A stretch of 64,000 nucleotides of DNA. Origin: Spartobacteria bacterium (GTDB lineage: Bacteria; Verrucomicrobiota; Verrucomicrobiia; Chthoniobacterales; UBA10450). Below the pieces are notes generated by a model. It was not told the DNA's origin and ran no database searches. It was given only the letters and a program-made list of their open reading frames with translations. Each line of letters opens with the position of its first letter. Within the stretch, counting starts at the first letter, position 1. Made by a program: the position numbers and the translations under genes. This document shows, piece by piece, positions 19,422 through 47,871 of this stretch. The stretch spans positions 1 to 64,000 of the forward strand of contig PNAA01000058.1 of the NCBI GenBank assembly GCA_003169975.1, in the 5' to 3' direction.

Positions 19422-20209
19422 GCGTCACGCACCGCGTAATTTCCCCGCACGACAGCGATTCTGCGGCGGCAGGCTGCTGCGCGCTTGCGATCATGACGAA
19501 AGCCCCGCGGGCCGGCCAGGTGAAGACGCGCCTCACGCCGCCCCTCACGCCGGGGGAAGCGGCCGCGCTGAATATTTGCTTCCTGCGCGATATCTCCGCC
19601 GCGATCGCCCGGGTGGGTGCAAACGCGAGCGGGATTGGCTGCTACACGCCGGTCGGCGCCGAGGAAGCGTATCGCGAGATCTTTCCGGAGAATTTTCAGC
19701 TCATCGCGCAACGCGACGGTAATTTCGGTGAGCGGCTCATTTTTGCCGCGCAGGATTTGTTCGCCGTCGGCTTTGCTTCGGTCTGCCTGATCAACTCCGA
19801 CAGTCCGACTGTGCCCACGTCTGCTTTCGCGCAGGCTGCAAAGATTCTTTCCTCGCCTAAGGACTGCGTCGTGCTCGGCCCATCCGACGACGGTGGTTAC
19901 TATCTGATTGGCTTGAAACAGCAGCATCGGCAGCTCTTCGCAGGGATTGATTGGAGTACCGATCGTGTCTTCGCGCAGACGTTGCAGCGGGCTGCGGAGC
20001 TGCGCCTCAACGTTCGTCTTCTGCCGCCGGGTTACGACGTGGATGATTGCGCGGCACTGCGCCGGCTTTGCGACGATTTGTTAGGCCCTAACGCCAGCGA
20101 GAAGAAGAACACGGCGCCCGCGACGCGCGAATTTCTCGGGGAAATCATCGCGTGCGAGGGCCGCGCGCGGATCTGGCCCGTCGAGCCTGTCACCCTTTCC
20201 GCGCGATGA
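19418..20209 (+). CDS. DUF2064/TIGR04282-type glycosyltransferase-like protein
   Basis: About 263 residues from ATG 19418, which overlaps the previous stop as ATGA. It has the nucleotide-binding start LAIMTKAPRAGQVKTRLTPP, the central LINSDSPTVP metal motif and VLGPSDDGGYYLIGL. These are the marks of the TIGR04282 family, which is annotated as arsenosugar-type glycosyltransferase and found with SAM methyltransferases, as here. The real substrate in this organism is unknown. Residues after about 240 are poorly conserved. Confidence 0.8.
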   Translation: MSVTHRVISPHDSDSAAAGCCALAIMTKAPRAGQVKTRLTPPLTPGEAAALNICFLRDISAAIARVGANASGIGCYTPVGAEEAYREIFPENFQLIAQRDGNFGERLIFAAQDLFAVGFASVCLINSDSPTVPTSAFAQAAKILSSPKDCVVLGPSDDGGYYLIGLKQQHRQLFAGIDWSTDRVFAQTLQRAAELRLNVRLLPPGYDVDDCAALRRLCDDLLGPNASEKKNTAPATREFLGEIIACEGRARIWPVEPVTLSAR

Positions 20210-21327
20210 AACGTGCGCTCGTCACCGGCGGCGCCGGCTTGATCGGTTCCCATCTCGCCGACCTCCTCCGGCGCGAGGGGTGGCGCGTCCGCGTCCTCGA
20301 TAATCTCGAACCGCAAACCCACCGCCACGGACGGCCCGCCTGGGTGGCGGAGGACACCGATTTCGTCCAGGGCGATCTCTGCGATCGCGCGACGATCGCC
20401 GCGGCACTCGCCGGCGTCGATATCGTCTTTCATCAAGCGGCCTACGGCGGTTACATGCCGGAGATTACAAAGTACGTGCACGTCAACAGCCTCGGCACCG
20501 CGCAAATGCTCGAGGTGATCCGGGAACAGAACCTGCCGATCAAGAAAATCGTCGTCGCGTCATCGCAGGCGGTATACAGCGAGGGTGCCGGCCGCTGCCC
20601 GGAGCACGGCCTGGTCTTCCCGCCGGTGCGCCCGGTTGAACAACTGCGCATGGGCGATTGGCAGGTGCATTGTCCGGTTTGCGGGGCGGTCACAACCACC
20701 GCGCCAACGCCAGAGCACGCCCCGATTGGCGGCGAAACGGTTTACGGCCTGACGAAGGTGGACCAGGAAAAACTGGTGCTCCTCTGGGGCAAACAGGTCG
20801 GGATCCCCACCGTCGCGCTCCGCTATTCCTGCACCTACGGCCCGCGCCAATCCATCTTCAATCCCTATACCGGCGTGGTCGCGATTTTCTGCACCCGCTT
20901 GCTCAACGATCTGCCGCCCGTGCTTTACGAAGACGGCGAACAGACCCGTGATTTTTCCTTCGTCGAAGACGTCGCGCGTGCCAACTTGCTCGCCGCTGAA
21001 AGCGACGCGCTCGATGGCCTGCCGGTCAACGTCGGCAGCGGTCGCGGCGTCCCGATTCGGGAAGTGGCCGAACAAATTTCCCACGCGCTTGGCATTTCCA
21101 TCGCGCCGCAGGCGGAAGGCGAATTTCGACCCGGGGAAATGCGTCACCTCACGAGTGACACCGAGCGCATCCGCGCGGCCGGCTACCAGCCGCAGGTCGA
21201 TCTCGCCGCCGGTATTGGTCGCTATCTCGACTGGATTCGCGGGCAAAGAGACGTCCGCGATTATTTCAGCGAAGCGGCTGATGTTTTGCGCCGCAAGGGT
21301 ATCGTCCAGCGCGTTGCCCGGGCGTGA
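20206..21327 (+). CDS. NAD-dependent sugar epimerase/dehydratase with a zinc-ribbon-like insert
   Basis: About 373 residues from ATG 20206 (ATGA overlap). Extended SDR fold: LVTGGAGLIGSHLADLL, DNLEPQTHR, the catalytic Tyr and Lys in TVYGLTKVDQEKL, and YGPRQ. Between the SSQAVY strand and the catalytic Tyr there is an insert with CPEH and CPVCG, about 30 residues apart, which could hold a zinc. Sugar-nucleotide epimerases usually lack this. It probably converts an NDP-sugar for the neighbouring GT2 enzyme. Confidence 0.82.
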   Translation: MKRALVTGGAGLIGSHLADLLRREGWRVRVLDNLEPQTHRHGRPAWVAEDTDFVQGDLCDRATIAAALAGVDIVFHQAAYGGYMPEITKYVHVNSLGTAQMLEVIREQNLPIKKIVVASSQAVYSEGAGRCPEHGLVFPPVRPVEQLRMGDWQVHCPVCGAVTTTAPTPEHAPIGGETVYGLTKVDQEKLVLLWGKQVGIPTVALRYSCTYGPRQSIFNPYTGVVAIFCTRLLNDLPPVLYEDGEQTRDFSFVEDVARANLLAAESDALDGLPVNVGSGRGVPIREVAEQISHALGISIAPQAEGEFRPGEMRHLTSDTERIRAAGYQPQVDLAAGIGRYLDWIRGQRDVRDYFSEAADVLRRKGIVQRVARA

Positions 21328-22016
21328 AACCGCACATCTCCGTCATTATTCCCGCGCTCGACGAGGAAGTGCCGATCGGCGCGGTGGTGCGCGCTTGCCT
21401 AACGACGGGTTTGCCCGACGAGGTCATCGTGGTCGACAACGGCAGCACCGACGCCACGTGTGAGCGCGCCCAGGCGGCGGGCGCGCGGGTCGTGGCCGCG
21501 CCGCGCGGTTACGGACGCGCCTGCGCAGCGGGGGTCGCGGCGCTCGATTCACAAACCGAAATCGTCGTTTTTCTCGATGGCGATGGGAGCGATTGTCCCG
21601 AGTTGATGGATCGTCTCGTTAGGCCGATCGTCCGGGAGGAGGCTGACTTCGTGATTGGTTCCCGCGTGCGCGGCGAGCGCGAACCCGGGAGCATGAATTT
21701 TCAACAAATCCTTGCCGGTCGCGCCGCCGGTTTGCTCCTCAAACTTCTCTATCGCGTGCCCTACACCGACATGGGTCCCTTCCGCGCGATCCGCCGCGAC
21801 GCGCTCGCACGGCTTGGGATGCGCGAGGAAACCTACGGCTGGAATCTCGAGATGCAGATGCGTGCCGCGCGCGCCGGGCTGCAGATTCTCGAGGTGCCGG
21901 TGAATCATCGGTGTCGCACGGGCGGCGAATCGAAGGTGTCAGGAACCTGGCGCGGCACGTTGGTGGCCGGCGCGCGGATTGTCGCGACTTTGCTCCGCGT
22001 CGGAACCGAAAGGTAG
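21324..22016 (+). CDS. Family 2 glycosyltransferase, dolichyl-phosphate mannose synthase-like
   Basis: A 230-residue single-domain GT-A enzyme without membrane helices. GTG 21324 overlaps the previous stop as GTGA. Motifs are VIIPALDEEVPIGAVV, VDNGSTDAT, the metal-binding FLDGDGSD, and YTDMGPFRAIRRDAL followed by YGWNLEMQMRAA, which resembles polyprenyl-phosphate glycosyltransferases. It is the last gene of the four-gene operon and converges with a membrane-protein gene 23 bp away. Confidence 0.85.
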   Translation: MKPHISVIIPALDEEVPIGAVVRACLTTGLPDEVIVVDNGSTDATCERAQAAGARVVAAPRGYGRACAAGVAALDSQTEIVVFLDGDGSDCPELMDRLVRPIVREEADFVIGSRVRGEREPGSMNFQQILAGRAAGLLLKLLYRVPYTDMGPFRAIRRDALARLGMREETYGWNLEMQMRAARAGLQILEVPVNHRCRTGGESKVSGTWRGTLVAGARIVATLLRVGTER

Positions 22017-27176: not shown

Positions 27177-30100
27177 TTATTTTTGCGAAACGGAATGGGC
27201 AGCGCCCATTTGCAAACAACTTTTTATCTTCTCCGCGAGAATGTCGACGTGCGTGGTGATGCATTCCAGATGACTGCCTCGCAAAGGATGGATCACGATA
27301 TTCGGCGCCAGATGTTGCCAATCGCTCGCGAGCATGTTTTCCGGCAATACGTCTTCGGAAAGAAGCAGGGCCACTGGAGCATGATAAGGTTGCGGGCGAT
27401 AGCCGGCTGACGCCCACAGAAACGTAGCCCTCACGTCGCGCTCGCGCGGCGGCTGATCATTCGCGCCGGTCCCTCGCTTCACGCGCGGCAACAGGGTGCT
27501 GCAAAGCAGAATGAGTCGATTGTAAATTCGTCGCAGCGCGATGCTTATTAGCCAGACCACCGTTCCAGGCGCGCGCGCCAGCCCGCCCATGCGCGCGTGC
27601 CAGCCCGCCCATTTCCCGAAATGCGCGAGCTTTGCCGCATCGTCCCAATGAAATAGCGCGCCGAGTTTTTCGGTGACAGAACGCAAGACACGCAAGCTTT
27701 TGTCCTGCGCGATGGCGTCGAGAATCAAGAGCATCTCGACTTTATCTCCGCCTGCTTCAAGCTGCCGTGCGAGTTCGTAGGCGACGACTCCGCCGATGCA
27801 AAACCCGCCGATGATGTAAGGCCCTTTCGGTCGCACCGCGCGCAAAGCCGCCGCATGCGCGCTGGCCATTTCTTCGATGCTCGGAGCGGCTGTCGCCGAA
27901 CGAATATCGTAGGGCGGCAAGACGTAGAACGGCTGCTCGGGGCCGAGCGCACGCGAGAGTTTCAAGCTGTAAAAACCGCCGCCGAGAAAATCGCCATGCA
28001 GGTAAAAAAAAGGCGTGAGGTTCCCAGCGTCCTTGACATGAACCAGCGCCGGCGAATCGCGCATGACGTCGTGTGCGATCTCATCCGCGAGATGCTCGAT
28101 CGTGGCGTGGTGAAAAAGCGAGGTTGGCAAAATTTCCCGGCCGCACGCGACTTCGGCGCGCTGCAACATGCGTATCGCCAGCAGTGAATTGCCGCCGAGA
28201 TCGAAGAAGTCATCGCGAATCCCAAGCTCGCTCAGGCCGAGAATGTCTTTCCAAATGGCGATTAACTGTAATTGCAGCCCCAGATAAGGGCGCACCGATT
28301 CCGCCGTCGTCGTTGGTTCGCTAGGCCGCTCAGGCAGCGCGCTCAAATCAAGGCGTCCATCCGAGGCGCGCACCGGTATTTCTTTCAGCCTAACGAATGC
28401 GACGGGGATCAATTCATCGGGTAAACCTTTTTCGCGCAAAGACTGGCGCAACGCGGCGGCGCTGGGAAGCGCAGCGGCCGCGGGCTGCGGCGTGATATAC
28501 GCCACCAGCGCCGTTTCTTTTTCTTGCCCGAAAGCGCGCACCAGAGCGTGTCGGATGCCGGGCATTGCGCCCAGGGCCGTCTCGCTCTGACGCAAATCAA
28601 GGCGAAAACCACGCGCGTAAACTTGCTCGGTAACATTGCCGAGTCGCTCGAGGACACCAGCACGGGACCAGCGCGCGAGCTCAGCCGTTGCCTGCAAATT
28701 CTTTCCGTCGTTGATCACCAGCTGGCCCGGCACACCGATCGGCAGCGGCTCGCCCGAATGCGGATCGACCACCTGGAGCTGTCCGGCCGGGAGCAATGGC
28801 TTTCCATCGAACGCCACGGTCCCGATTTTTGCCAGAACGCGACGACTGCAAACGCGAATGCTGACCGATGCGTCTTCCTGGGCGGAGACGCGAGCAAAGC
28901 TGCCCTCACGCGGTGCGCCTTCGGTTGCGATCACGCATCGCAGTTTCGCCGGCTTCGTCGCTTTGCCGGGGAAGGCGGTGGCAAGTCGATGCCAGGTGGC
29001 GGCCGGCAGGAATGCGACGGCAATCTCTTCGCGCTCCAACCAGTCCACGAGAACGGCCGGCGCAGCGCGAAGTAATTCCGGCGGCGGAGCAACCGAGACT
29101 GCGCGTGCGAGACGGACGGCGCCAAGTTCTTCTTCAACGGCAACACCCGGCGGAGAAAAGGAAACGACGCGTTCCCCGGGGTCGAGGTGGGCCCATTCGC
29201 ACAGCGCAACGGACGCTGGCGACGACAAAGGGGCTTGAATGGGATGATCGTCGAGTCCGAGCTGGTGCCGTTCCGCTTTCGTCAATAACGGCAGCGTGGA
29301 AATCGATTTTGCCGGATCGGCCAGAGCGCCGCCGAGGAGCGTCTCATAATGACCGAGCATGCGCTCGATCGTCTCGGCATCGAAGAGGCCGGTATCGTAC
29401 TCCAACTCCAGGCGGACACCGTTCGAATCGTCGAGAATTGCGGCGCTCAGCTCATAGATGGTTCCCACGCTTGGAGAACTCAGCGGTTCGACGAGGAGCC
29501 CGCTGGACAACGTGCTCTCGAAAGATGCGGACTGGTAGAGGAAATTCACTTGCAGCCGCGAGGAATGAAATTCATCGAGCAGCAATTCGAGTGGGACGTC
29601 CTGATTTTCCAACGCGTCCATCGCCACGCTGCGCACCCGTCCGAGAAGCTCGCGGAATGATGGATCGGCGCGCAGATCGGCACGGAGCAGCAGCGGATTA
29701 ACAAAAGGCCCGATCAGCGATTCGAATTCTTCACGCTGACGATTCGCGCTCGGCGAAGTGATGAGGAAATCCGTCTGGCCGGTGTAGCGATGCAGCAGCG
29801 CTTGGAAGAGCGCGAGAAAAAACATGAACGAACTTGCGCCTTCGCGCGCCGCGAAAGTCTTCGCCGAGCGCACCAATTCCGGCGCGAGTCTTCGAGCGCG
29901 CACGTCGCTCGCGCCGGTCTGCGTGCGGGCGCGCGGGCGATCCGTGGGCAGATCGAGGACCGGAAGATCACCGGCTAGTTGCCGCCGCCAATATTCGCGC
30001 TGCACTACGAAATCATTTGCCGCCAGGCGCTCTTGCTGCCAGTGCGCGTAATCGGCAAATTGAAGGCGCAATGGCGGAAGAGGCGGGGCCTGTTTGACGG

Positions 30101-30698
30101 CGAACGCCTCGTAAAACGTCCACAATTCGCGGGCGAGAAGACCGTTGCTCCAGCCATCGGAAATGATGTGGTGCAAAACCAGAAGCAAGAGATGCTCGGC
30201 TTTATCGAAACGAATAAGTCGCGCGCGCACGAGCGGGCCGGTGGCCAGATCAAAAGGCCTTTGGGCCTCGGCGCGAATGATGCAATCGACAAAGCGAGCG
30301 TCATTTTCTGCTGGTGGCCTGCTCTTTTCGACCATCGCGAGATCGAGATTGATCGCCGGCGCAATCGCCTGGCGCAGCTCCCCTCGCGCGGAAACGAATG
30401 TCGTGCGCAACGCTTCGTGCCGCGCTCCAAGTTCCTGCAACGCGCGCCGTAGTGCGCCGAGATCGAGCGGGCCGCGCAGACGCATCGGCAGCGACATGTG
30501 GAGCGCGGGATTGCCGCCGGGCTTGAGTTTGTCGAGCAACCAAAACCGTCGCTGGGCGAGCGTGGCCGGCAAAACAAGAGTCGTTTCCGAATCCTTGGGA
30601 CGCGGAGTTTCGGCGCGAGCCACCTTCGTCGAAATCGCGGGATGCGAATCGCTCGGAGGTTGAAAGCTCCCATTCGATTTGAGGCGCGGCGAAATCAT
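27177..30698 (-). CDS. NRPS termination protein: C, degenerate A, T and thioesterase domains
   Basis: A 1173-residue protein. Condensation domain at about 40-475 with an intact LHHIISDGWS. Residues 485-790 look like a shrunken adenylation domain: it lacks the TSGSTGxPKG core, the YGPTE core and the usual A8, and has ASDGRLD where NGKxDR with the catalytic Lys belongs, so it should not activate an amino acid. Carrier domain with Ser838 in DLGGNSLL. Thioesterase at 893-1165 with Cys967 in GGFCIGG, Asp near 994 and His near 1143. It should condense and release the peptide, with its own carrier loaded in trans or unused. Confidence 0.88.
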   Translation of the reverse strand: MISPRLKSNGSFQPPSDSHPAISTKVARAETPRPKDSETTLVLPATLAQRRFWLLDKLKPGGNPALHMSLPMRLRGPLDLGALRRALQELGARHEALRTTFVSARGELRQAIAPAINLDLAMVEKSRPPAENDARFVDCIIRAEAQRPFDLATGPLVRARLIRFDKAEHLLLLVLHHIISDGWSNGLLARELWTFYEAFAVKQAPPLPPLRLQFADYAHWQQERLAANDFVVQREYWRRQLAGDLPVLDLPTDRPRARTQTGASDVRARRLAPELVRSAKTFAAREGASSFMFFLALFQALLHRYTGQTDFLITSPSANRQREEFESLIGPFVNPLLLRADLRADPSFRELLGRVRSVAMDALENQDVPLELLLDEFHSSRLQVNFLYQSASFESTLSSGLLVEPLSSPSVGTIYELSAAILDDSNGVRLELEYDTGLFDAETIERMLGHYETLLGGALADPAKSISTLPLLTKAERHQLGLDDHPIQAPLSSPASVALCEWAHLDPGERVVSFSPPGVAVEEELGAVRLARAVSVAPPPELLRAAPAVLVDWLEREEIAVAFLPAATWHRLATAFPGKATKPAKLRCVIATEGAPREGSFARVSAQEDASVSIRVCSRRVLAKIGTVAFDGKPLLPAGQLQVVDPHSGEPLPIGVPGQLVINDGKNLQATAELARWSRAGVLERLGNVTEQVYARGFRLDLRQSETALGAMPGIRHALVRAFGQEKETALVAYITPQPAAAALPSAAALRQSLREKGLPDELIPVAFVRLKEIPVRASDGRLDLSALPERPSEPTTTAESVRPYLGLQLQLIAIWKDILGLSELGIRDDFFDLGGNSLLAIRMLQRAEVACGREILPTSLFHHATIEHLADEIAHDVMRDSPALVHVKDAGNLTPFFYLHGDFLGGGFYSLKLSRALGPEQPFYVLPPYDIRSATAAPSIEEMASAHAAALRAVRPKGPYIIGGFCIGGVVAYELARQLEAGGDKVEMLLILDAIAQDKSLRVLRSVTEKLGALFHWDDAAKLAHFGKWAGWHARMGGLARAPGTVVWLISIALRRIYNRLILLCSTLLPRVKRGTGANDQPPRERDVRATFLWASAGYRPQPYHAPVALLLSEDVLPENMLASDWQHLAPNIVIHPLRGSHLECITTHVDILAEKIKSCLQMGAAHSVSQK

Positions 30699-30705
30699 AA
30701 CGCTT

Positions 30706-33700
30706 CTATTTACCGCGGCCGCGGGCGCGACGCGATCCTCGATCGACCGGCACCACGGACTGTGATGGCCGGCGCGCGGCGGTCTCTTCCTCGGCCTCCT
30801 GCATCCAGCGCGCGACCGCGGGGGCGAATTTTGTTTCCAGTAACTTCGCCATCGCCGCGACGGTGGGCGCTTCGAAAACCATGACGGGCGATAGATGTTC
30901 GCCCAGCGCCTCGCGCAACTGATTCACCAGCCGCAGCCCGAGAAGTGAATGGCCGCCAAGCTCGAAAAAATTATCGCGCGTCCCAATCTGCTCGACTTTC
31001 AGCAACGCCGACCAAATGCGCGCGAGTCTTTCTTCCAGCGGCGTCCCTGGCCTGACGAATATATCTTCAATCGCCGTCGGCTGCGCAACGGGCAGCGCGG
31101 CGCGGTCGAGCTTGCCGTTGGGGGTACGCGGCAACGTCGACAACGTGACAATCGCCGAAGGCACCATGTAATCGGGCAGAGAATTTTTTAGCGCGGCGAG
31201 CAGCGCCGCTTGCGATGCTGTCCCGACGACATACGCGACGAGTCGCTTTTCTCCGGCTGTGTCTTCGCGCACGATGACCGCGCTGTCGATTACGCCGGGT
31301 TGCTGTTTCAGGACGTTTTCGATTTCCGCCGGCTCAATGCGGAATCCGCGCAGTTTTACCTGCGTGTCGCCGCGCCCAAGAAATTCAATCGTGCCGTCGT
31401 CGCGCCAGCGCGCGAGGTCGCCCGTTTTGTAAAGTCGTGCGTCCGGTTCGGCGCTGAATGGATCAGCGATAAACTTTTCCGCGGTCAGCTCGGGCCTTCG
31501 CCAATAACCGCGCGCCAGGCCATCGCCGCCGAGAAATAACTCACCCGCTTGACCAATTGCGAGCGGTTGAAACTGGGCATCCAAAATATATGCGGTCGTA
31601 TTGGCGATTGGTTTGCCGATAGGAATGGATTCGTCGCGCGGCGCGTTCGGATCGATCGTGTGACAACAGGCAAAGGTCGTGCTTTCCGTCGGCCCATAGC
31701 CATTGATGAGGCGCGTGTGCGGCAGCGCGCGCAATGCTTTACTCACATGCGCGACCGAGAGAACGTCGCCGCCCGCGAGCAATTGATGCAACGGCTGCAG
31801 GTCGGCCAGGCGCGAGTCCACCATCGCGTTGAACAAACCTGCGGTCAGCCAGAGTGTGGTGACGCCGTGGATGCGAATGGCGCTGCCAATTTCTTCGAGC
31901 GTGGGCGGCGCTGGCGGCATGACGACGAGTTTCGCGCCGTTGAGCAGCGCGCCCCAAATTTCGAAAGTCGATGCGTCGAACGAAATCGGCGCAAGCAGGA
32001 GAAATGTCTCGTTAGGCGAAAACGACGCATAGGTCGTCTCTTTCACCAGACGAACGACGGCACGATGCGGCACGGCGACGCCTTTCGGTATCCCGGTCGA
32101 ACCGGAAGTGTAGATCATGTAAGCCAAATCTTCGGCGCCCGCGCCGGGTGCGAGATTCGTGTCGTCTTCAGCGGCGAAAGCGTTTGCCTCAACGCCAAGA
32201 ATTTTTCTCGTCGAAAAAGTCTCAGCGCCAGGTTGCGTGAGGATCACCGGCGTCTGGGCGTCGTCGATCATGAACGCGATCCGTGCGGCGGGGTACGATG
32301 GATTGAGCGGAAGGTAGGCGCCGCCGGCTTTGAGAATTGCGAGCAATGCGATCACCAATTCGCACGAACGCTCCAGCAAGACGCCCACCGGAACCTCGCG
32401 CTCGACGCCGAGTTTTTTCAGGTGGCGCGCCAGTTGATTGGCGCGCCGGTTCAACTGGTCATAGGTCAGTTGCTCGTCGCGGAAGGCGAGCGCGACAGCG
32501 GATGGCGTGCGGCGCGCTTGCTCTTCGAAGATGGAATGGATGGTCGCATCCCGCGGATACGGCGTGCGGGCGCCGTGCCAGTGCGATGGCACTTTTCTTT
32601 CTGTCTCGCGCCAAACTGCGGCGAGCAGATCGGAGATGCGCTCGGTCGGCGCGGCGGCGATACGCTCCAGCAATTTCAGCCAGCGCGATTTTAGCAGCTC
32701 GATCGTTGGCCGTTCAAAAAGAGCGGTGTTGTAGATGAAGCGACCGAAGAGACCGTCCGGGCGATCGTCCAAGCCGAGCTGCAAATCGAACTTCGCCGTG
32801 CCCGGATCGACATCCATGTGCGTGAAGGCCCAACCTTCGGCGAGTGGCGGGAGCGGTGGTTCGACCACCAGCAACACTTGCAGCAATGGCGCACGACCTG
32901 GATCGCGCTGGCCGGCGAATTTCTGCACGAGCAGCTCAAACGGAATCGAATCGTGCGAGACCGCACCGAGCGTCGCCGCCTTCACGCGCGCCAGATGTTC
33001 CGTAAACGGAAGCTCCTTGGAGAAAGCGCATCGGATCACGACGGTATTCAAAAAGCAGCCGAGCAGATTCTGCGTTTCCGTATGGTTTCGCCCGCTGCTG
33101 ATTCCTCCGATGACGATGTCTTCCTGGCCCGTGTAACCATGCAACAGCGCGGTGAGCGCAGCGACCATCGTCATGAAAGGAGTCGCGGCCTGTTCCTGAC
33201 TGAGCTCTTTCAACGCGGCGCTGACCGCGGGCGCGACCTGCAGCGTCAGAGCTTCGCCGGCGAATGTTGGCAGCGCCGGCCGCGGATGATCGGTCAAGAA
33301 ATCGAGCACCGGCAGATCGCGCAAAATACTTTCCCAATACGAAAATTGTTCCTCCGGGATGTGGGCAGCCCGCTGCCAGACGGCGTAATCGGGATATTGA
33401 ATGGGCAGTTCGCGAAGCGCCGGCCGCTGGTTTTTCGCGAACGCCTCGTAACCCGCGATGAGTTCCGGCAACAACACGCGATAGAGCGAGACGCCGTCGA
33501 AAATAAGGTGATGCAAGGTGAGGAACAGACGGTGATCCGCGTCTTGCAGACGGACAAGGCGCAGCCGGTACAACGGTCCGCGGGCAAGATCGAATGGCCG
33601 GCGCGCTTCATCGGTTGCGAGGCGAATCGCTTCCGCTTCCGGGTCTGGATGGGAGCGCAAATCGGTGAATGGAATTGCTATCTGCGCAGGTGGTGGTTGC

Positions 33701-34038
33701 ACCATTTGCGCGGGCTCATCACCGTCCCAATGAAACGTCGTTCGCCAGGCTTCGTGCCGGCGCACGATCTCGGTGAAGCTGCGCTCCAAGGCGGAACGAT
33801 CGAGCGCGCCGCGGCGACGAATCGTGATCGGCTCGTTGTAAATCAAGCACTCGCCCGCCAGTTGCGCGTGCGACCAAATTTGTTGTTGCGGATACGAGAG
33901 CGGCACCGGGCCCGATCCACTTCGTTTTGGAATCGTGGCGTGCTCCGCGCCCGCGGGCGCAATCTCGCCGCGCAGATATTTTTGCAACAGCGCACGCCGC
34001 TTTTCGGAAAGCTCAACCTTGCGTCCCGGCTCCATCAC
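30706..34038 (-). CDS. NRPS module C-A-T, predicted valine-specific
   Basis: An 1110-residue protein. Condensation domain at 44-470 with HHLIFDG at 176-182; adenylation domain at about 500-985 with TSGSTGIPKG at 644, YGPTES and Lys976; carrier domain with Ser1031 in ELGGHSLL. Reading the ten specificity positions against GrsA gives D-A-F-W-L-G-G-T-F-K, one residue from the DAFWIGGTFK valine code. The tail is basic (SRRARGRGK). It overlaps the P450 stop by 4 nt and is followed 7 nt later by the terminal NRPS gene. Confidence 0.93.
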   Translation of the reverse strand: MMEPGRKVELSEKRRALLQKYLRGEIAPAGAEHATIPKRSGSGPVPLSYPQQQIWSHAQLAGECLIYNEPITIRRRGALDRSALERSFTEIVRRHEAWRTTFHWDGDEPAQMVQPPPAQIAIPFTDLRSHPDPEAEAIRLATDEARRPFDLARGPLYRLRLVRLQDADHRLFLTLHHLIFDGVSLYRVLLPELIAGYEAFAKNQRPALRELPIQYPDYAVWQRAAHIPEEQFSYWESILRDLPVLDFLTDHPRPALPTFAGEALTLQVAPAVSAALKELSQEQAATPFMTMVAALTALLHGYTGQEDIVIGGISSGRNHTETQNLLGCFLNTVVIRCAFSKELPFTEHLARVKAATLGAVSHDSIPFELLVQKFAGQRDPGRAPLLQVLLVVEPPLPPLAEGWAFTHMDVDPGTAKFDLQLGLDDRPDGLFGRFIYNTALFERPTIELLKSRWLKLLERIAAAPTERISDLLAAVWRETERKVPSHWHGARTPYPRDATIHSIFEEQARRTPSAVALAFRDEQLTYDQLNRRANQLARHLKKLGVEREVPVGVLLERSCELVIALLAILKAGGAYLPLNPSYPAARIAFMIDDAQTPVILTQPGAETFSTRKILGVEANAFAAEDDTNLAPGAGAEDLAYMIYTSGSTGIPKGVAVPHRAVVRLVKETTYASFSPNETFLLLAPISFDASTFEIWGALLNGAKLVVMPPAPPTLEEIGSAIRIHGVTTLWLTAGLFNAMVDSRLADLQPLHQLLAGGDVLSVAHVSKALRALPHTRLINGYGPTESTTFACCHTIDPNAPRDESIPIGKPIANTTAYILDAQFQPLAIGQAGELFLGGDGLARGYWRRPELTAEKFIADPFSAEPDARLYKTGDLARWRDDGTIEFLGRGDTQVKLRGFRIEPAEIENVLKQQPGVIDSAVIVREDTAGEKRLVAYVVGTASQAALLAALKNSLPDYMVPSAIVTLSTLPRTPNGKLDRAALPVAQPTAIEDIFVRPGTPLEERLARIWSALLKVEQIGTRDNFFELGGHSLLGLRLVNQLREALGEHLSPVMVFEAPTVAAMAKLLETKFAPAVARWMQEAEEETAARRPSQSVVPVDRGSRRARGRGK

Positions 34039-35261
34039 GTTGGATCGAAAGTTACCGGTAGCGCCGTTAATCCGCGCAGTCCGGAGTTTGATCGCCAGGT
34101 GAGCGGACCGGGCGCCAGCTGCAAACCCGCGAGGCGCCGCAACAGAGTTTCAAACGCGATCTGACCCTCCATTCGGGCCAGCGGTGCGCCGAAACAGAAA
34201 TGGTTCGACCAGCCGAAGGCGAGATGTTTGTTGTCGGCGCGCTCGAGCATGAGCGCATCGGGATCGGGAAACCGATCGGGATCGCGATTGGCCGCGGCCA
34301 TGATCGCCATCACGGCCTGTCCCTTGCGGATTTGTCGACCGTCGATTTCCACATCTTCCTTCGCGATGCGCCCGGTGTGCTGGCTCGGGCTTTCGAAACG
34401 CAAAAGTTCCTCGACGGCGGAAGGAATCAGGCGCGAATCGTGGCGCAGTTGATCCAGCTGCGCGGGATTTCGCAGCAGCGTGAGCAGGCCGTTGCCAATC
34501 AAGTTCGTGGTCGTCTCCTGCCCGCCCACCAGCGTGACGATGCAGTTCGCGACGATCTCTTCTTCCGTCAGGCGATCGCCGTCGATCTCGGCCGTCATGA
34601 ACGAATGGATCAATCCTTCGCGCGGACATTCGCGGATTTCCGCGATCGCATTTTGAAAATAGCTGACGAGATGGTTGGTGCTCTGGAGTACGCGCGGAAT
34701 CCGATCGGGGTTGTGCTGAAAATTTCCGAGCATCTCGGCGAAGTCCGCCGACCAACCTTTTAATTTCACGTGGTCCGCTGTCGGCACGCCGAGCATTTCC
34801 GCCGTCACAATCGCCGGCATCGGCGCCGCGAAATCCGCTATCACATCCATTTTTCCCTGCGCTCGCACCTTGCCTAACAAGTCATCGGCGATGCTCTGAA
34901 TGTGCTCGCGCAAGACCGTCACGCGCGCGGGAGTGAAGGCCACCGACGCCAGCCCGCGCAGGCGCGTATGCGCCGGCGCGTCCATGAACAGCATCTGTTT
35001 CACCATCACTTTCGCGATTGGATTCAGAGCCGAGAGGCCCATCGCCGTTAATTGCGCCGGCGTCGGGGTGCGATCGGCCGAAAAGGAATGGAGCACGCGC
35101 AGCACATCGGGATAGCGCGTGACCACCCAGGTGTGCAGAAAACGGTCCCAATGCACCGGGTCTTCCGTGCGCAGCCGGCGATACAGGGGATAGGGATCCG
35201 CCAAGACTTCCGGCTCGAGCAGGCGAACCAGACTCAGCCGGGCGTCCGAATGCTTATCCAT
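34035..35261 (-). CDS. Cytochrome P450, probably acting on a carrier-bound amino acid
   Basis: A 408-residue soluble bacterial P450. The heme Cys356 is in AFGWSNHFCFGAPLAR, the I-helix has TLVGGQETTTN, and the K-helix ExxR is EELLR. It overlaps the A-T didomain gene by 8 nt and the C-A-T gene by 4 nt, so translation of all three is coupled. A P450 next to a stand-alone A-T didomain is the arrangement known for beta-hydroxylation of aminoacyl-carrier substrates (NovH/NovI type). Beta-hydroxylation of leucine is therefore the working idea; the site is not shown by sequence. Confidence 0.9.
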   Translation of the reverse strand: MDKHSDARLSLVRLLEPEVLADPYPLYRRLRTEDPVHWDRFLHTWVVTRYPDVLRVLHSFSADRTPTPAQLTAMGLSALNPIAKVMVKQMLFMDAPAHTRLRGLASVAFTPARVTVLREHIQSIADDLLGKVRAQGKMDVIADFAAPMPAIVTAEMLGVPTADHVKLKGWSADFAEMLGNFQHNPDRIPRVLQSTNHLVSYFQNAIAEIRECPREGLIHSFMTAEIDGDRLTEEEIVANCIVTLVGGQETTTNLIGNGLLTLLRNPAQLDQLRHDSRLIPSAVEELLRFESPSQHTGRIAKEDVEIDGRQIRKGQAVMAIMAAANRDPDRFPDPDALMLERADNKHLAFGWSNHFCFGAPLARMEGQIAFETLLRRLAGLQLAPGPLTWRSNSGLRGLTALPVTFDPT

Positions 35262-37062
35262 TGCCGACCGTGGCGAGCGTCGCTTCGACTTCTGCCTCGC
35301 TCATTGACGCGAGCTGACGAGTGAGCGCTTCCTCGATTTTCAGCGAAAGCTCGGCGACCGTCGGCGCGTCGAAGACATCGAGCAATCGCAATTCCACTCC
35401 GAATTGATCACGCACGCGCGCGACCACCTGTGCGCCGAGAAGGGAGTGCCCACCGAGATTGAAAAAATCATCGTGCACACCTACGCGCGGTAGTTTCAAA
35501 ACTTCGCTGATGATGCGCGCGAGCGTTTCTTCCAGCGGCGTGCGCGGCGCGACGAATTCGCCCTCGCGCGCGTTGTTCTCCGCACCAGGCGGCGGCAATG
35601 CGGCGCGATCGATTTTTCCGTTCGCGGTCAACGGCAACGATTCCATCCAAACGAAAGCGGACGGCTCCATGTAATCCGGCAGGCGCCGCCGTACCGCTTC
35701 GCGCAGCGCTTTCTCGTTTCGCTCCGCGCCGGCGATCGGAACGACGTAAGCGACCAGTCGTTTCGCGCCGGGAGCATCTTCGCGCGCGATCACAATGCTG
35801 GCCTGGATGAACGGATGATCCTTCAGAACCGAGTTGATTTCATCGAGCTCGATGCGCTGACCGCGAATTTTTATCTGATCGTCCGCGCGACCGAGAAAGG
35901 CAATTTCGCCGTTGGAAAGACGCCGCCCGAAATCCCCGGTTCGATATACCCGCCCGGCGGACGGTCGAAATGGATTGCTAATAAACTGCTCGGCGTTGAG
36001 CGCGGGACGATTCCTGTAGCCGCGCGCCACTCCCGCGCCACCGATATAGATTTCGCCAGCAATTCCATCGGGAACTTCGCGCAGTTGTTCGTCCGCAAGG
36101 TAAATCTCCACGTTGTCAACGGGTCGCCCGATGGAAGGCAAACCATCGCGATTATGGCCCGCCGAAATCACCGCCGATGTCGCGACGACGGTGCACTCCG
36201 TCGGTCCGTAATTATTCACGAGCGCGAACGGCAAACCCGTGGGCGGATAACGATGCAAAGTTTCCGCGCCGGTCAGAAGAAAACGCAAAGCGGTTTCCGG
36301 CGGCCAGGTCAGGGCAAGCAATTGCTCGGCGATCGCGGTGGGAATAAAAGTGATCGTGATCTTGTTTGCAACGAGCCAATCACGCATAGCTTCAGGCGAC
36401 AAGCGCGTAATTTCATCGGGCAAATAAAGCGCCGCGCCCACCGTCAACGCCGGCCAGATTTCCCAGACGGCGGCATCGAAACCAACGCCCGCCTGGAACG
36501 TCGCGCGATCGGATGAATCGAGCTCGAAAGCGCGCAGATGCCAGGCGATAAGATTCGACAGGTTGCGGTGCGTGATTTCGACGCCCTTTGGTTGTCCGGT
36601 CGAGCCGGAGGTGTAGATGACATACGCGAGCTGATCGGGATCCGATCCAATCGCGGCAAATTGAGTCGGCTGTTGCGCGATCACATCCTTTTCGCCGTCG
36701 AGGGTGACGACACGCGCGCCAGAATTCGTGAAGTGCCCGGCGAATTTTTCCTGGGTGAGCACGAGAAGCGCGCCGGCGTCTTGTACGATGAAGCGCAATC
36801 TTTCGGCGGGATGCGCTGAATCCATCGGCAGGTAAGCGGCGCCGCATTTCATGACGGCCAGCGCCGCGATGACGAATTGCGGCGATCGCTCGAGACAAAC
36901 AGCCGCGACACCTTCCGGCCCCGCGCCTAAAGAGTGTAAGTATTGTGCGAGCTGTGACGCGCGCCGATCCAGCTCGGCATTGGTCAGCACGTCCGCACCC
37001 ATCGCGACCGCGATGCGTTGCGGATTTTGCTGCGCTTGGGTGGCAATGGCTTCCGTTAACAT
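35254..37062 (-). CDS. Stand-alone NRPS A-T didomain, predicted leucine-specific
   Basis: A 602-residue protein with no condensation domain. Adenylation domain with TSGSTGQPKG at 151, FDAAVWEIW, NNYGPTE, RTGDFGRR, IKIRGQRIEL and the catalytic Lys483; carrier domain with Ser540 in NLGGHSLL. The specificity positions read D-A-W-F-L-G-N-V-V-K, the Leu(1) code. As first gene of the operon it should load the first residue and present it to the P450. The promoter should lie in the 137-bp divergent gap before the protease gene at 37212. Confidence 0.93.
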   Translation of the reverse strand: MLTEAIATQAQQNPQRIAVAMGADVLTNAELDRRASQLAQYLHSLGAGPEGVAAVCLERSPQFVIAALAVMKCGAAYLPMDSAHPAERLRFIVQDAGALLVLTQEKFAGHFTNSGARVVTLDGEKDVIAQQPTQFAAIGSDPDQLAYVIYTSGSTGQPKGVEITHRNLSNLIAWHLRAFELDSSDRATFQAGVGFDAAVWEIWPALTVGAALYLPDEITRLSPEAMRDWLVANKITITFIPTAIAEQLLALTWPPETALRFLLTGAETLHRYPPTGLPFALVNNYGPTECTVVATSAVISAGHNRDGLPSIGRPVDNVEIYLADEQLREVPDGIAGEIYIGGAGVARGYRNRPALNAEQFISNPFRPSAGRVYRTGDFGRRLSNGEIAFLGRADDQIKIRGQRIELDEINSVLKDHPFIQASIVIAREDAPGAKRLVAYVVPIAGAERNEKALREAVRRRLPDYMEPSAFVWMESLPLTANGKIDRAALPPPGAENNAREGEFVAPRTPLEETLARIISEVLKLPRVGVHDDFFNLGGHSLLGAQVVARVRDQFGVELRLLDVFDAPTVAELSLKIEEALTRQLASMSEAEVEATLATVGNG

Positions 37063-39656: not shown

Positions 39657-40490
39657 TTACTTTAAGAGATCCGCCCTGGATATGGCCGCCAGCTGCGTGC
39701 CCTCCGCTGCTTTTCCCAGCGGCACGATGTGCGTAATGCGCAATGTCAAAGGAGCGCCGCTGGTCTTCACCGCGACGGCGATGATGTGGTGCGGGGAAGC
39801 GTCGAGGAGCGCGAAGCGCCAACTGGTCGCATCTTCGGCCAGGGATGGATCGAGGACGATATGGATCGCGTCCTCTTCGAAGTGAAACGAAGACCCATCG
39901 AGCGGCAGACTTAAGCCCTCGCCGCGAGCTTTGGCGAAACTTTCCTTAAGTGTCCAGTAGGCTAGGAAGAGCCGCGGTCGTTTGGGTGTTGGACAGGCCC
40001 GGAGTTTTCCTCTCTCGGATAACGAGAGATACCTTTCTGCATCGCGAAAGATATCCCTTCCACCTTCGATCATCTCGGCATCGACCCCAATGAGTTCGTG
40101 CGCGGCGCTTACCACACAAACAACCAGACCCTGGGTATGCGCCAGGTTGAATTGAAGACGCGGTCTGAGGATCGGCGACGCGATGAATGGTTTGCCATGC
40201 TCCGCGTTGGAGAAACGCCAATCACCCGGTGCCACCGGGAAATAGCTGGATAGAACTGTGCGAGCCAGCGCCCGGGTGGCGATGAATAACCGGCGCTCGC
40301 GCTCGAAATGGAATCGCCCGCATCTTTCATGCTCGTCGGGGGTCATGAGTGCCGCCTGTGCCGAGAGTAGCTCCGGGTCATGACTCGATTCGGGAAAGTA
40401 GCACCAAAGATCGACCATCCCCGGTTCGCGTGGAGGGATTTCGTCTCCGGTGGGCGAAGGGAATCGTAGAGCAACTGCGTCCTCGCTCAT
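39657..40490 (-). CDS. 4'-Phosphopantetheinyl transferase, Sfp type
   Basis: About 277 residues from ATG 40490; the longer frame to 40568 is not conserved and runs toward the tRNA remnant. Motifs are FNLAHTQGLVV, IGVDAEMIEGGRD with the Mg-binding Asp and Glu, and YWTLKESFAKARGEGLSLP with the catalytic WxxKE. It moves phosphopantetheine from CoA to the Ser of carrier domains. It lies 2.6 kb from the NRPS operon, so it probably activates Ser540, Ser1031 and Ser838 of those proteins. Confidence 0.88.
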   Translation of the reverse strand: MSEDAVALRFPSPTGDEIPPREPGMVDLWCYFPESSHDPELLSAQAALMTPDEHERCGRFHFERERRLFIATRALARTVLSSYFPVAPGDWRFSNAEHGKPFIASPILRPRLQFNLAHTQGLVVCVVSAAHELIGVDAEMIEGGRDIFRDAERYLSLSERGKLRACPTPKRPRLFLAYWTLKESFAKARGEGLSLPLDGSSFHFEEDAIHIVLDPSLAEDATSWRFALLDASPHHIIAVAVKTSGAPLTLRITHIVPLGKAAEGTQLAAISRADLLK

Positions 40491-40593
40491 CGCTGGGAGA
40501 TTAGACAGAGGCGCGCGATCTGCAAGGCTTGGTCTCTCGACTCCGGCGGATCGGCTTGCCGAGCGCATGGAAGCGTGCGAACTACCGAGCAGG

Positions 40594-40633
40594 TGCCGGC
40601 ATAGCTCAGTTGGTAGAGCAGCTGATTTGTAAT
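40594..40633 (+). repeat. attL: 40-bp copy of the 5' half of tRNA-Thr
   Basis: This 40-bp stretch is identical to 55068-55107, the 5' half of the complete tRNA-Thr through the anticodon loop. After 40633 the sequence diverges from the tRNA, so this copy cannot fold into a tRNA. It marks the left boundary of the integrated element. Confidence 0.93.
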
Positions 40634-40748
40634 TGAGCCTAACGATTTATCGCTGTTTTGCACGCCGTTGCAAAATCGCATTTCACGAGGGAAGAATGGC
40701 GCGGAATCGTTGCGCAGCTTTGCAACGTTTTGCAGCAAAAAATCGTCT

Positions 40749-40758
40749 GACCGTAGAA
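40749..40758 (+). promoter_or_regulatory. Possible integrase arm-type site, left end
   Basis: GACCGTAGAA occurs here and again at 55000 and 55013, close to both ends of the element and nowhere else noticed. CGACCGTGAA follows 12 bp later as a weaker copy. Such repeats near both att sites fit integrase arm-binding sites. Confidence 0.45.
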
Positions 40759-40818
40759 AACGACCGTGAATTTTCTCTGCCTTGGGCGAATCGGCGGCGG
40801 CTGTGACGCCCGGGCTTT

Positions 40819-41430
40819 TTACCGGGGTGGTTTGGGACTGGTCAAATCCATCCCAGACCCAACCGGTGTTGGATCCATCCCAGGGGCAGGATCAGGACCA
40901 GAAGCAAGAGCAGGGGCATCTGGCAGCCTGGTAAACTCAGCATCAGTGCAGGTACTGAGCCTGAAGCTGTTCGTGATGTCGGCATGGATGGTCCTCAGCT
41001 CGGAGTAAATATCCTGAGCGTTGATCGTGACCTGGAGATTCTGGGTTGGTTCCCCCGCCAACAGCAGACCCTTCTCGGTGAAAATACCAAAGACAACGGC
41101 AGCCTGGGAACAGCCAGCTTCGTGAATGGTCTCCTCGACACGATCTGAGGCTTTATTTGCGATCTGGAACGCCTTGGCCATGAGGCGTACTTTTCGCTCC
41201 GCTATTGAAATCGATTGCGACTTCTCGATTGCCTTGACGCTGTGCTCGCTCACGTGGAGCAACCGGCAAATGTGATCGTACGGGACCTGCGCACGCGGTT
41301 CCGCTAGTAGATCCACGACGCGCCAGTAAACTTCGGGGCGCAGAACTTTCAGGCGTTCACCCGTGAATCGGCCCTTCGGTTTCGGGTGCGCCAGCTCAGA
41401 TGATGTTTGGCTCTTCGTACCCACGGTCAT
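40819..41430 (-). CDS. HTH-containing protein of the element, unknown function
   Basis: About 203 residues from ATG 41430 (MTVGTKSQTSSEL); the open frame continues to 41490. Residues 30-90 carry a helix-turn-helix-like region, VPYDHICRLLHVSEHSVKAI, followed by a helical stretch. The C-terminus is Pro/Asp-rich (PALASGPDPAPGMDPTPVGS), probably disordered. It is the leftmost gene of the element. Phage-type DNA-binding proteins have similar N-termini, but I do not recognise a family. Confidence 0.55.
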   Translation of the reverse strand: MTVGTKSQTSSELAHPKPKGRFTGERLKVLRPEVYWRVVDLLAEPRAQVPYDHICRLLHVSEHSVKAIEKSQSISIAERKVRLMAKAFQIANKASDRVEETIHEAGCSQAAVVFGIFTEKGLLLAGEPTQNLQVTINAQDIYSELRTIHADITNSFRLSTCTDAEFTRLPDAPALASGPDPAPGMDPTPVGSGMDLTSPKPPR

Positions 41431-41477
41431 GTTCAATCGCACATGTATCCGGTTTCGCAAAGGAAAGCAACAGCGAC

Positions 41478-41711
41478 CGGGATTATGCACTTTGACGTTT
41501 GGCGAACTGCCGTCCCTGACCTGTGGCGTGCCAAAATTACTGCGGGAAGATCAGTGCTTCAGGCCCACAAGGATCGAAACGGGACTATGCACTTCACAAA
41601 GGTTTGTCGAATTTTGAACTTAAGGTCAAACTTTCCTAGGAAAAATCGTAGGCGTCGCAGTCTGGTTTGATCCCAAAAATATTACTGCGGCGCGCCAAAA
41701 TTACTGTGGGA
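41478..41711. repeat. Two families of direct repeats upstream of the left HTH gene
   Basis: CGGGAYTATGCACTT occurs at 41478 and 41580, 102 bp apart. GCCAAAATTACTGYGGGA occurs at 41530 and 41694, with a partial copy, AATATTACTGCGGC, at 41679. The rest of 41491-41822 holds no gene. Repeated words in front of a DNA-binding gene fit operator or iteron sites. Confidence 0.65.
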
Positions 41712-41822
41712 AATTTTAAATAGTTCGTGACTTGGCACATTTTCTGTGCAATACCCGGCGAATACCAGACGGCAGGCTTGTCACCTGCTCTCTTCGTTAA
41801 TGCCTGGAACGACCAATGAAAA

Positions 41823-42005
41823 ATGAGTACTGCAGAAATCGCGAAGGAATGTAAAGCTGACGCTCTGGAAATCATAGAGCAAACAAAGCAAGTCCGCGCT
41901 GAGATTCGGAAGGCGAGACCAAACTCTTCTGAAGAATCAACTGCGCTGGGTGCTTTGGAGGCTCTTGAAATGATGCTAGCTGCGGCTCCGGACGAAATTC
42001 CTTAA
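41823..42005 (+). CDS. Small helical protein of unknown function
   Basis: Sixty residues, mostly charged and helix-forming: MSTAEIAKECKADALEIIEQ, then TKQVRAEIRKARPNSSEEST, then a short Ala/Leu helix. The ATG at 41823 follows an AT-rich stretch, with GAAAA about 6 nt upstream. No family recognised. It is followed 87 bp later by another plus-strand unknown gene. Confidence 0.45.
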   Translation: MSTAEIAKECKADALEIIEQTKQVRAEIRKARPNSSEESTALGALEALEMMLAAAPDEIP

Positions 42006-42092
42006 ACGCGGTTCGACACTATCAGTTGCTTTTGTTTGGGTCGTAATTGACCCAACGGGGAAAAACGCACTGCACTTCTTTTAATCGAGGTA

Positions 42093-42632
42093 ATGTCTCT
42101 CCCGAGTGAACAAGAAATTCTGGCCCGCGAAGAACAGATCCGGATAACACGCTTGACGATGTTGTTGGGTTCTTGGCAACTTGTCTCTAATAAGTACACG
42201 GACCTACCGGAAGGGGCTCGGCTTAATAAAGTGCTGGCAGCGGCAGTTGTAGAGCGGTACCTCGCGGATCGCCAAGCTGTAATGGCTCGCCACGTTATTA
42301 CTGGCAGAATCCAACGCCATAAAATTGCGGGGCTGATGGCGGCATCAATAGTTAAGGTCCGCCCTATTCAGCTTTTGGATGACATGGGAACTGCGGCACG
42401 CGTTTCGAAGGACAACGAAATTTTAGCGGTGTGGCACGGGTTAGCGATCTGCGCCGAGGGCGATAAGACCGAAGGTGCACAGCGGCTCGTGGATCAACCT
42501 AAATTCGGACATTGGCTATCCGACTTCGTTTATTTGCTAAGCCGAAGGCAGGACTGCGCCGAACAGTGCTCGTTTATTTTCGAAACGCTTAGCTTGACCT
42601 ATTTCCCCGATAATTTTGACCGTCGGAAATAG
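42093..42632 (+). CDS. Protein of unknown function
   Basis: A 179-residue soluble protein with GAGGTA about 4 nt before ATG 42093. It begins MSLPSEQEILAREEQIRITR, predicted helix, and includes WHGLAICAEGDKTEGAQRLV and several His and Cys residues (HWLSDFVYLLSRRQDCAEQC). No motif is recognised. The base composition matches the element and differs from the flanking chromosome. Confidence 0.55.
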   Translation: MSLPSEQEILAREEQIRITRLTMLLGSWQLVSNKYTDLPEGARLNKVLAAAVVERYLADRQAVMARHVITGRIQRHKIAGLMAASIVKVRPIQLLDDMGTAARVSKDNEILAVWHGLAICAEGDKTEGAQRLVDQPKFGHWLSDFVYLLSRRQDCAEQCSFIFETLSLTYFPDNFDRRK

Positions 42633-42863
42633 TTAATTTCCTTCGACTCCTGCTTCGGTCGCTCCGCTTTTTTTGCCTTCTTCCCGCTTGGCGGCGGCCA
42701 GAACAGGACAATGGCCCGCACGGGCGAGCCGCACTGGCTAGCAGTCTGAGTTTTTACTGGGAAATAATCGAGGCTTCTATTCCGCGTGTGGTCGCTAAGA
42801 ATTGATCTTTTGTCCGCCGAACAATACTGGTTCGAGCCGGCCAGCGGTTGGCTGCATCGCTGG

Positions 42864-43451
42864 TTAGGCCTCTCGTTCAAATCTCACCGGCTTCTCTTTC
42901 TGTGCGTAACTCTGCCGCCACCAGAGATCCTCCATCTGTGCATCGCAGAGCAGCGTGTCTCGGAACGACTCTGTAATCCGCCTAGAGTTCGCTGCGGGAA
43001 AATCGACATCTACGTGGTCGAAGAGATCTGGCGGCGGGGAGCTTCGCTCCTCGCGTGTGTCTTGGAACTGCGGATGAACCAACCGACGACGCATCTGAAA
43101 CAACTCGATGACCTGCTGCATCACTCCTGACCCGAAATCTACTGGCTTCTTCAGGAGCGAGTAAATGCGCCGGATACGATCGCTGACCGAACTTCGCTCC
43201 TTCGTGAACTCCTCCCACTTCGGATCAACATGGTGGCCGACGTAGTTGATGTATCCCTCAATCGCGCAACTCGCGATGATGACACCGAGCGGGTTGCGAG
43301 CATAAGCTGCGAACACATGATTGAATTTTTCGGGCGGAGCTTCCTCAAGCCAACCTATGAAGCGAACAAAGTCATAGCCCGGGTTACATCGGAGATGGAA
43401 CTCGGCATACTCCGGATAATCGAACTGTGAGTCGCCATGTCGCGCAGGCAT
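42864..43451 (-). CDS. Cassette-like gene C: HEPN-like protein of unknown function
   Basis: A 195-residue protein. The middle has SCAIEGYINYVGHHVDP and then ELFQMRRRLVHPQFQ, a helix ending in Arg-x4-His-Pro. HEPN-type RNA-binding or RNase proteins often carry an R-x4-6-H motif at that place, so a toxin- or defence-like role is possible but not shown. It starts 7 nt after one attC-like site, and its TAA stop lies inside GCCTAAC, as in integron cassettes. Confidence 0.6.
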   Translation of the reverse strand: MPARHGDSQFDYPEYAEFHLRCNPGYDFVRFIGWLEEAPPEKFNHVFAAYARNPLGVIIASCAIEGYINYVGHHVDPKWEEFTKERSSVSDRIRRIYSLLKKPVDFGSGVMQQVIELFQMRRRLVHPQFQDTREERSSPPPDLFDHVDVDFPAANSRRITESFRDTLLCDAQMEDLWWRQSYAQKEKPVRFEREA

Positions 43452-43458
43452 GTTTAAG

Positions 43459-43581
43459 GTCTAACGAGACCAGTATGAGCCGCAGCGAGCGGGAGCGCGA
43501 GTAGCTGCTGATGGACGGGTTAAATTCATGTGAATCCGGTTAGTACGACGGCTCGCGGTCAGCTCCATCGCTTGGTTAGGT
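43459..43581 (-). repeat. attC-like recombination site between cassette-like genes B and C
   Basis: On the minus strand it starts ACCTAAC and ends GTTAGAC, the R-box forms RYYYAAC and GTTRRRY. The flanks are imperfect inverted repeats (GAGCTGACCGCGAGC against GAGCCGCAGCGAGC on the opposite strand). Length is 123 bp. The stop of gene B lies in the first box, and the next gene starts 7 nt after the last. Confidence 0.6.
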
Positions 43582-43947
43582 GCGGCGCGTTGCGTCCTCT
43601 CTCCGCTGTTTAACGCTGCGGACGGAAAGGACAATCGCGTAAATGCCCGCGAGAAGGAGCAGAATCGCTGCAGCATAACCCTGCTCGGGCGTCATCCAGC
43701 CGCTTCTTATCGTTGGCGAGATAAATCCACCGCGTCGATGCGCATCCAAAGCGACCCCTGATAACAGGCTCGCGAGCACGATGAGACAGACGCCCAAAAC
43801 GAACGAAGCGGTGAAAGAACGGAAACGCCGTGTCTTGCCCGACTGCTTCGCCGCTCGATCGCCTCCGACCATATAAACGACCACGAGCAAACAGAGAGCG
43901 CCGATCGCAACGCTGGCAGGAAGAAGAATTCGAGGGAGCTCGGTCAC
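43576..43947 (-). CDS. Cassette-like gene B: small membrane protein
   Basis: A 123-residue protein from GTG 43947 with three hydrophobic helices at about 7-29, 48-68 and 92-111, separated by basic loops (KQSGKTRRFR, KQRREDATRRT). Positive charges place the loop between helices 1 and 2 and the C-terminus in the cytoplasm. No family recognised. The start lies 3 nt after an attC-like site and the stop is embedded in the next one. Confidence 0.6.
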   Translation of the reverse strand: MTELPRILLPASVAIGALCLLVVVYMVGGDRAAKQSGKTRRFRSFTASFVLGVCLIVLASLLSGVALDAHRRGGFISPTIRSGWMTPEQGYAAAILLLLAGIYAIVLSVRSVKQRREDATRRT

Positions 43948-43950
43948 AAC

Positions 43951-44017
43951 ACCTAACTAGAACAAGATGAGCTGCCGCGACCGGGGGCGCGCTGTGCAGC
44001 GGATTGACGGGTTGGAC
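43951..44017 (-). repeat. attC-like recombination site between cassette-like genes A and B
   Basis: On the plus strand ACCTAAC (43951) and GTTGGAC (44011) bound a 67-bp element with an inner GCTGC...GCAGC stem. The boxes fit the RYYYAAC/GTTRRRY pair. Gene B starts 3 nt beyond it; gene A stops 15 bp before it. Confidence 0.55.
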
Positions 44018-44032
44018 TCATGCGAGGCTGGA

Positions 44033-44713: not shown

Positions 44714-45071
44714 TAGAAGGCGACGGCTGGGTTTGCGGATTCGGAGGACATCAACACCACGGGAATAAGGTCAGCTAGCGGGTAAATAAGAACCAGCACA
44801 AAATCGGCCTTGGTTTCCGCCATTTTCCGCGAGGGAATCCGGCGGAAAATTTTCCTTCCGTCCGCGAGCCTTACGGAATTTGGCGGACGGAAAGGGGAAT
44901 CTCAAGGTTTCCTCGTTAGAATAACCCGCGTTGCGGCAGGCTGGGCGGGAAAGATTCACCGGCATGAGAATCATCGAAGTCCGGCCATTGAAGAAATTCA
45001 AGAGCGCCTGGGTTGCGTTTGGCTGTCGAGCATCGAATAGTCGAACGCAGCGGATCGCGCCACCCCCAGCG

Positions 45072-45332: not shown

Positions 45333-45477
45333 TAAATTGGAACGCTGAGATTGTCGAAAAAAAGTCTTGCCACCGTTCGTGGTCTTCCGGTAATGTCACC
45401 ACGTCGCTGCTTGAACAGCGACCGCCAAACTCAAACGCCGGGCCATCAACCCGGGGCGCTAAACGAAGAGGAAAACA

Positions 45478-45557: not shown

Positions 45558-45564
45558 TTCCAAA

Positions 45565-46310: not shown

Positions 46311-46392
46311 ATGATGGCTCCCGCGCAGGCGTGAATCAGCTTGCGCGGGAGTTGCCGCCAACAAGTAAAAGGAAAGAGAAGGAAAACAAACT

Positions 46393-47861: not shown

Positions 47862-47871
47862 CGGCCATGTC

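Follow-up and report, generated by a model that had tools for sequence, protein, structure and literature searches.

A predicted leucine-specific A-T/cytochrome P450 pair, recurrent across bacterial phyla, heads a non-canonical peptide synthetase operon of a Spartobacteria bacterium

A compact operon in a 64,000-nucleotide stretch of Spartobacteria DNA (the window) encodes a stand-alone adenylation-carrier (A-T) protein with a leucine code, a cytochrome P450 and two further peptide synthetase proteins. Judged by sequence comparison, the Leu A-T/P450 pair is a conserved, swappable cassette found in at least seven phyla, mostly in uncultured soil bacteria. In the pathway we propose, leucine would be loaded, oxidised and joined to valine, the last carrier T3 would be loaded in trans and a peptide would be released, the cassette itself being horizontally exchanged; taken as a whole, we give this proposal an even chance of being right. 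A full-text literature search found no described cluster matching this architecture.

The four genes, read from 37062 to 27177, are tightly coupled: two neighbouring pairs overlap, by 8 and 4 nt, and the third is separated by 7 nt. They are listed here with their domains and a neighbouring phosphopantetheinyl transferase (PPTase) gene:

35254..37062, (-): stand-alone A-T didomain protein, 602 aa, A code DAWFLGNVVK (Leu), T with GGHS
35596..37044, (-): A1, adenylation domain (Leu), from domain search, code by alignment
35344..35526, (-): T1, carrier domain, from domain search, presumed site of P450 action
34035..35261, (-): cytochrome P450, 408 aa, heme Cys motif FGWSNHFCFG, I-helix GGQETT
30706..34038, (-): C-A-T module, 1110 aa, GTG start, A code DAFWLGGTFK (Val)
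32623..33906, (-): C1, condensation domain, HHLIFDG intact
31111..32529, (-): A2, adenylation domain (Val), from domain search, code by alignment
30838..31032, (-): T2, carrier domain, GGHS
27177..30698, (-): C-A*-T-TE, terminal module, 1173 aa, with a dead adenylation domain
29259..30572, (-): C2, condensation domain, HHIISDG intact
28284..29243, (-): A*, truncated degenerate adenylation domain, core motifs lost
28080..28268, (-): T3, carrier domain, GGNS, Ser intact
27204..28043, (-): thioesterase (TE), Cys nucleophile, GFCIG
39657..40568, (-): Sfp/HetI-like PPTase, from Pfam and NCBIfam

Profile searches with Pfam and NCBIfam confirm the domain assignments of the four genes, and their open reading frames, strands, order and close coupling are as the first-pass annotation of this DNA had described them. 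The cluster contains two active-looking A domains, two C domains with HHxxxDG and three T domains with their serine. Re-extracted by alignment, the code of A1 is DAWFLGNVVK, the commonest reported Leu code (PMC12283262), and that of A2 is DAFWLGGTFK, interpreted as Val in a malacidin-type synthetase (PMC9113097); the two substrates first read by eye are thus upheld by both the alignment and the published meanings. No MbtH gene occurs in the window's genome, so the A domains presumably function without MbtH. Dozens of genomes share this gene order, which excludes a chance arrangement.

Scanning genome contigs with the P450 yielded 67 loci, of which 64 form its family (P450 61-84% identical to that of the window) and three are outgroups at 31-46% identity. 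The hosts belong to Verrucomicrobiota, Acidobacteriota, Rokubacteria, Chloroflexota (among them two named species, Dictyobacter aurantiacus and D. kobayashii), Eremiobacterota/Vulcanimicrobiota, Dormibacterota and Planctomycetota. Almost all of these genomes are metagenome bins and may be misnamed. In 56 of the 64 family loci, counted by eye, the P450 is immediately preceded on its strand by an A-T gene, or by the T end of one at a contig edge; the remaining eight are contig edges, divergent pairs or genuinely separate. The A domains that can be read there all have a Leu-type code, mostly exactly DAWFLGNVV; the A1 code list was pre-filtered on LGNV, and this near-invariance rests on the unfiltered alignments, which hold no other code there. 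The pair combines stand-alone loading of one amino acid with an adjacent P450. The cluster is not an isolated case, its A-T/P450 half being a member of a cross-phylum family. In two loci, L038 and L041, a divergent Leu A-T faces two family P450s in tandem.

The heme and I-helix motifs of the P450 are intact and conserved among its relatives. Its AlphaFold2 model has a pLDDT of 79. The nearest solved structure, at 39% identity, is P450BioI complexed with acyl-ACP, and the 60 top-ranking PDB sequence matches and the 50 top-ranking fold matches comprise P450BioI, CYP109, PksS, CYP142 and similar enzymes. The resemblance to the P450BioI-ACP complex is consistent with a carrier-bound substrate, short of proof. 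Most likely, the enzyme oxidises carrier-bound leucine, probably by beta-hydroxylation. Hydroxylation of PCP-bound Leu has been proposed for the P450 PlyR in polyoxypeptin, and by analogy with PlyR and NikQ, 3-hydroxylation would be the most economical reaction (PMC3943440). The P450 is not evidently nearest to the amino acid beta-hydroxylating P450s, and no NCBIfam equivalog family scores above its cut-off. Together with the P450BioI, CYP109 and PksS types among its nearest solved structures, this leaves some room for oxidation of a different carbon, desaturation, N-oxidation or a late tailoring step on the peptide. We consider such a reaction unlikely, about one chance in four, as a Leu A-T partner that stays constant against changing downstream genes argues for action at the Leu-S-T stage.

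The P450 is also the best conserved part of the system, which fits the expectation for a fixed chemical step: median pairwise identity among the relatives is 0.67-0.69 for the P450, 0.52 for A1, 0.45 for C1 and 0.42 for A2. Pairwise identities correlate modestly with those of the P450 (A1 0.44, C1 0.41, A2 0.20). A specific co-evolution of the P450 with A1 is therefore not strongly supported.

A textbook modular synthetase has one functional A domain in each module; the last module of the window has none. We read the cluster as a modular assembly line, but a non-canonical one, with an A* domain devoid of core motifs. A* scores 23.5 bits against the Pfam AMP-binding profile (cut-off 29.9) and matches only profile positions 199-375. 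Aligned to A1 and A2, it is without most of the N-terminal half, YTSGSTG and YGPTE, and its NGK is changed to SDGR. The inactivity that had been claimed for this third A domain is borne out by the sub-threshold match and the missing motifs. One degenerate domain could be a sign that the whole cluster is non-functional and undergoing degradation; we find this very improbable, given the four open frames, the other motifs intact, and the same dead A* in locus L002 at 50% identity.

Three relatives group with the window in a quick tree of the P450 (L001-L003, support 99), and they differ in this region. L002 has the same C-A*-T-TE architecture, again with intact C2, T3 and TE motifs, at 54-66% identity to the window. 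L003 is C-A(Val)-T-T-TE; its second T reads GGNA (Ser to Ala), and the C and A of a third module are absent. L001 has C-A(Gly-type)-T and C-A(Val)-T, then a PKS. These differences show that the third module is evolutionarily unstable within the window clade.

The first-pass annotation predicted Leu-Val plus one more condensation, whose donor it found unclear. The donor would be the dipeptide on T2; since A* is dead and C, T and TE are intact, the uncertain partner is the third amino acid, the acceptor of module 3. The extra condensation itself agrees with the intact C2, T3 and TE, although a plain dipeptide is also conceivable in view of the decayed third module of L003. Given the loss of Ser there, and with A* dead, the third module of the window may be a relic as well. 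T2 would then pass its chain to TE, and the product would be an (oxidised) Leu-Val dipeptide or a cyclised form; we hold this to be improbable but worth keeping in mind, at roughly a one-in-four chance, since the HHIISDG, GGNS and TE motifs kept by both the window and L002 make the module look maintained. The intact C and T of these two loci favour an amino acid supplied in trans over a pure relic.

The window cluster indeed pairs a dead A domain, whose C and T are intact, with a stand-alone A-T. In syringomycin, albicidin and ramoplanin, a dead or missing A domain is complemented by a stand-alone A-T (PMC8949500). In L051 and L078, A1 is the sole A domain seen in the cluster, yet a C-T-TE is present, which makes A1 the simplest supplier of T3. 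The C domain of this C-T-TE has lost its catalytic second His in both, and these two relatives may carry out no condensation at all. Alternative loaders of T3 could be three further stand-alone A domains on contig C2 of the window's genome (L083, L084). One of these is 48% identical to the A domain of L018 that is of the DLFYLALVCK type. On contig C53 of the same genome (L082), a lone C domain has a large KS-bearing gene nearby.

From these data we infer the P450 reaction, the trans loading and the product as follows. The stand-alone A-T would load leucine onto its own carrier T1, where the P450 would oxidise it, most likely to 3-hydroxyleucine. C1-A2-T2 would couple the oxidised leucine to valine. 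The final C-A*-T-TE would be unable to activate an amino acid of its own; as its C, T and TE keep their motifs, T3 most likely receives its residue in trans, with the stand-alone A1 (Leu) as the simplest candidate. The Cys thioesterase would then release a tripeptide, or else a dipeptide. The A-T/P450 half would be a horizontally exchanged 'oxidised-leucine' cassette, joined elsewhere to different downstream acceptors.

What follows the cassette is indeed varied. In C-A-T-TE loci, the codes of the second A domain are Val, DSALIAEVWK, DIEDIGTVIK, those that we take to be of Gly and Ser type, and others. DSALIAEVWK is a His-type code (PMC12283262). Two elongation modules follow in L046 and L001, the latter running on into its PKS. 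An A-less C-T-TE follows in L051, in L078 and, together with an extra free C, in L079/L080; in L027 the C-T-TE is elsewhere on the contig. Several C domains of the family are without the second His of HHxxxDG; C1 and C2 of the window keep the motif. In L019, L034, L040, L050 and L054, a protein of about 380 aa lies just after the P450. It has no Pfam or NCBIfam match, and AlphaFold2 and Foldseek reveal an acyltransferase with a tandem GNAT fold, resembling Eis and N-myristoyltransferase.

The distribution of the cassette is patchy. The P450 occurs in 7 of 83 genomes of the window's family and in none of four congeners; sampled Acidobacteriota have it in 9 of 297 genomes, sampled Verrucomicrobiota in 1 of 288. 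L001 and L002 are Chthoniobacterales/Spartobacteria bins of the same family as the window's genome. L078-L080, also from that family, group in the quick tree with L051 and an acidobacterial row (support 100), nested in a largely acidobacterial clade (support 98). Two P450 lineages in one family, along with the patchy occurrence, fit horizontal transfer best and suggest it for the cassette; loss and binning errors are possible too.

The PPTase does lie 2.6 kb from the cluster, as first noted, and its link to the cluster is stronger than was claimed: in 17 other loci a PPTase of the same family adjoins the cluster, and in several of these it comes directly after the TE gene. In the window, a DnaJ-like ORF on the opposite strand intervenes, so the PPTase is probably outside the cluster transcript. 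Beyond it, a lower-GC stretch at 40594-55107, ending 26 bp from the PPTase start, has the features of an integrated element: it is bounded by two copies of a 40-bp direct repeat corresponding to the tRNA-Thr 5' part (55068-55107 and 40594-40633) and contains an integrase (53843-54994) and primase/helicase-like genes (49352-51308). That the cluster is itself part of this element was rejected: the outer repeat at 40594-40633 lies beyond both the PPTase and the NRPS genes. On the other side, at 18687-22016, genes for a methyltransferase, DUF2064, an epimerase and GT2 stand in a row that we take to be reminiscent of arsenosugar-type clusters.

In 20 of 72 loci, at least two exopolysaccharide-type gene families occur in the flank, a count for this sample without a background control. 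These families are WbaP-type sugar transferase, chain-length, tyrosine-kinase, XrtA-system ATPase, flippase, GT4, deacetylase, sulfotransferase and export protein, and the loci are spread over several separate P450 clades. In seven acidobacterial loci (L004, L006, L010, L026, L036, L037, L063), the cassette is accompanied by a stand-alone A domain with the code DLFYLALVCK, presumably proline-like, and a prolyl-carrier dehydrogenase-like gene of the PigA/RedW type; these two genes suggest a pyrrole unit in an exopolysaccharide-type locus. The window cluster is not read as an exopolysaccharide locus, such genes being absent from the examined flanks of its clade.

The cassette is similar to the NikQ, PlyR (polyoxypeptin) and NovH/NovI systems, the last a further case of beta-hydroxylation of a carrier-bound amino acid by a P450: each has a dedicated carrier loading of one amino acid and a P450 in the same cluster. 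Here, in contrast, the amino acid is leucine and its A and T are fused in one protein, the closest structures to the P450 are of the P450BioI type, there is no free-standing TE for the building block, and hydroxylation is putative. A stand-alone A-T beside an assembly line ending in C-T-TE is known from syringomycin (SyrB1/SyrE), and one beside a line containing a dead A from albicidin (Alb04). The window's stand-alone A-T differs in having the expected role of starter as well, its trans loading being putative; no SyrC-like shuttle enzyme was identified for the window cluster. DAWFLGNVVK is also the code of Leu-activating domains in the laxaphycin/scytocyclamide line, whose products contain 3-hydroxyleucine (PMC7524897); these are large cyanobacterial cyclic lipopeptides of unrelated architecture.

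More speculatively, the cassette may act as a mobile plug-in that provides a range of unrelated acceptors with oxidised leucine, and in the exopolysaccharide loci of Acidobacteria and Planctomycetes the tandem-GNAT protein might move the oxidised leucine from its carrier onto a sugar. We regard this as doubtful, with perhaps one chance in five; if true, it would be an NRPS-derived amino acid decoration of polysaccharide. With the step placed in exopolysaccharide-type loci, it is possible that sugars of the cell surface are decorated by peptide-synthetase chemistry. The small molecules of soil Acidobacteria, Verrucomicrobia and neighbouring groups are almost unknown, although these bacteria are abundant. 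A cross-phylum two-gene step with a predictable substrate offers an in vitro handle, of three small proteins, that would open dozens of clusters.
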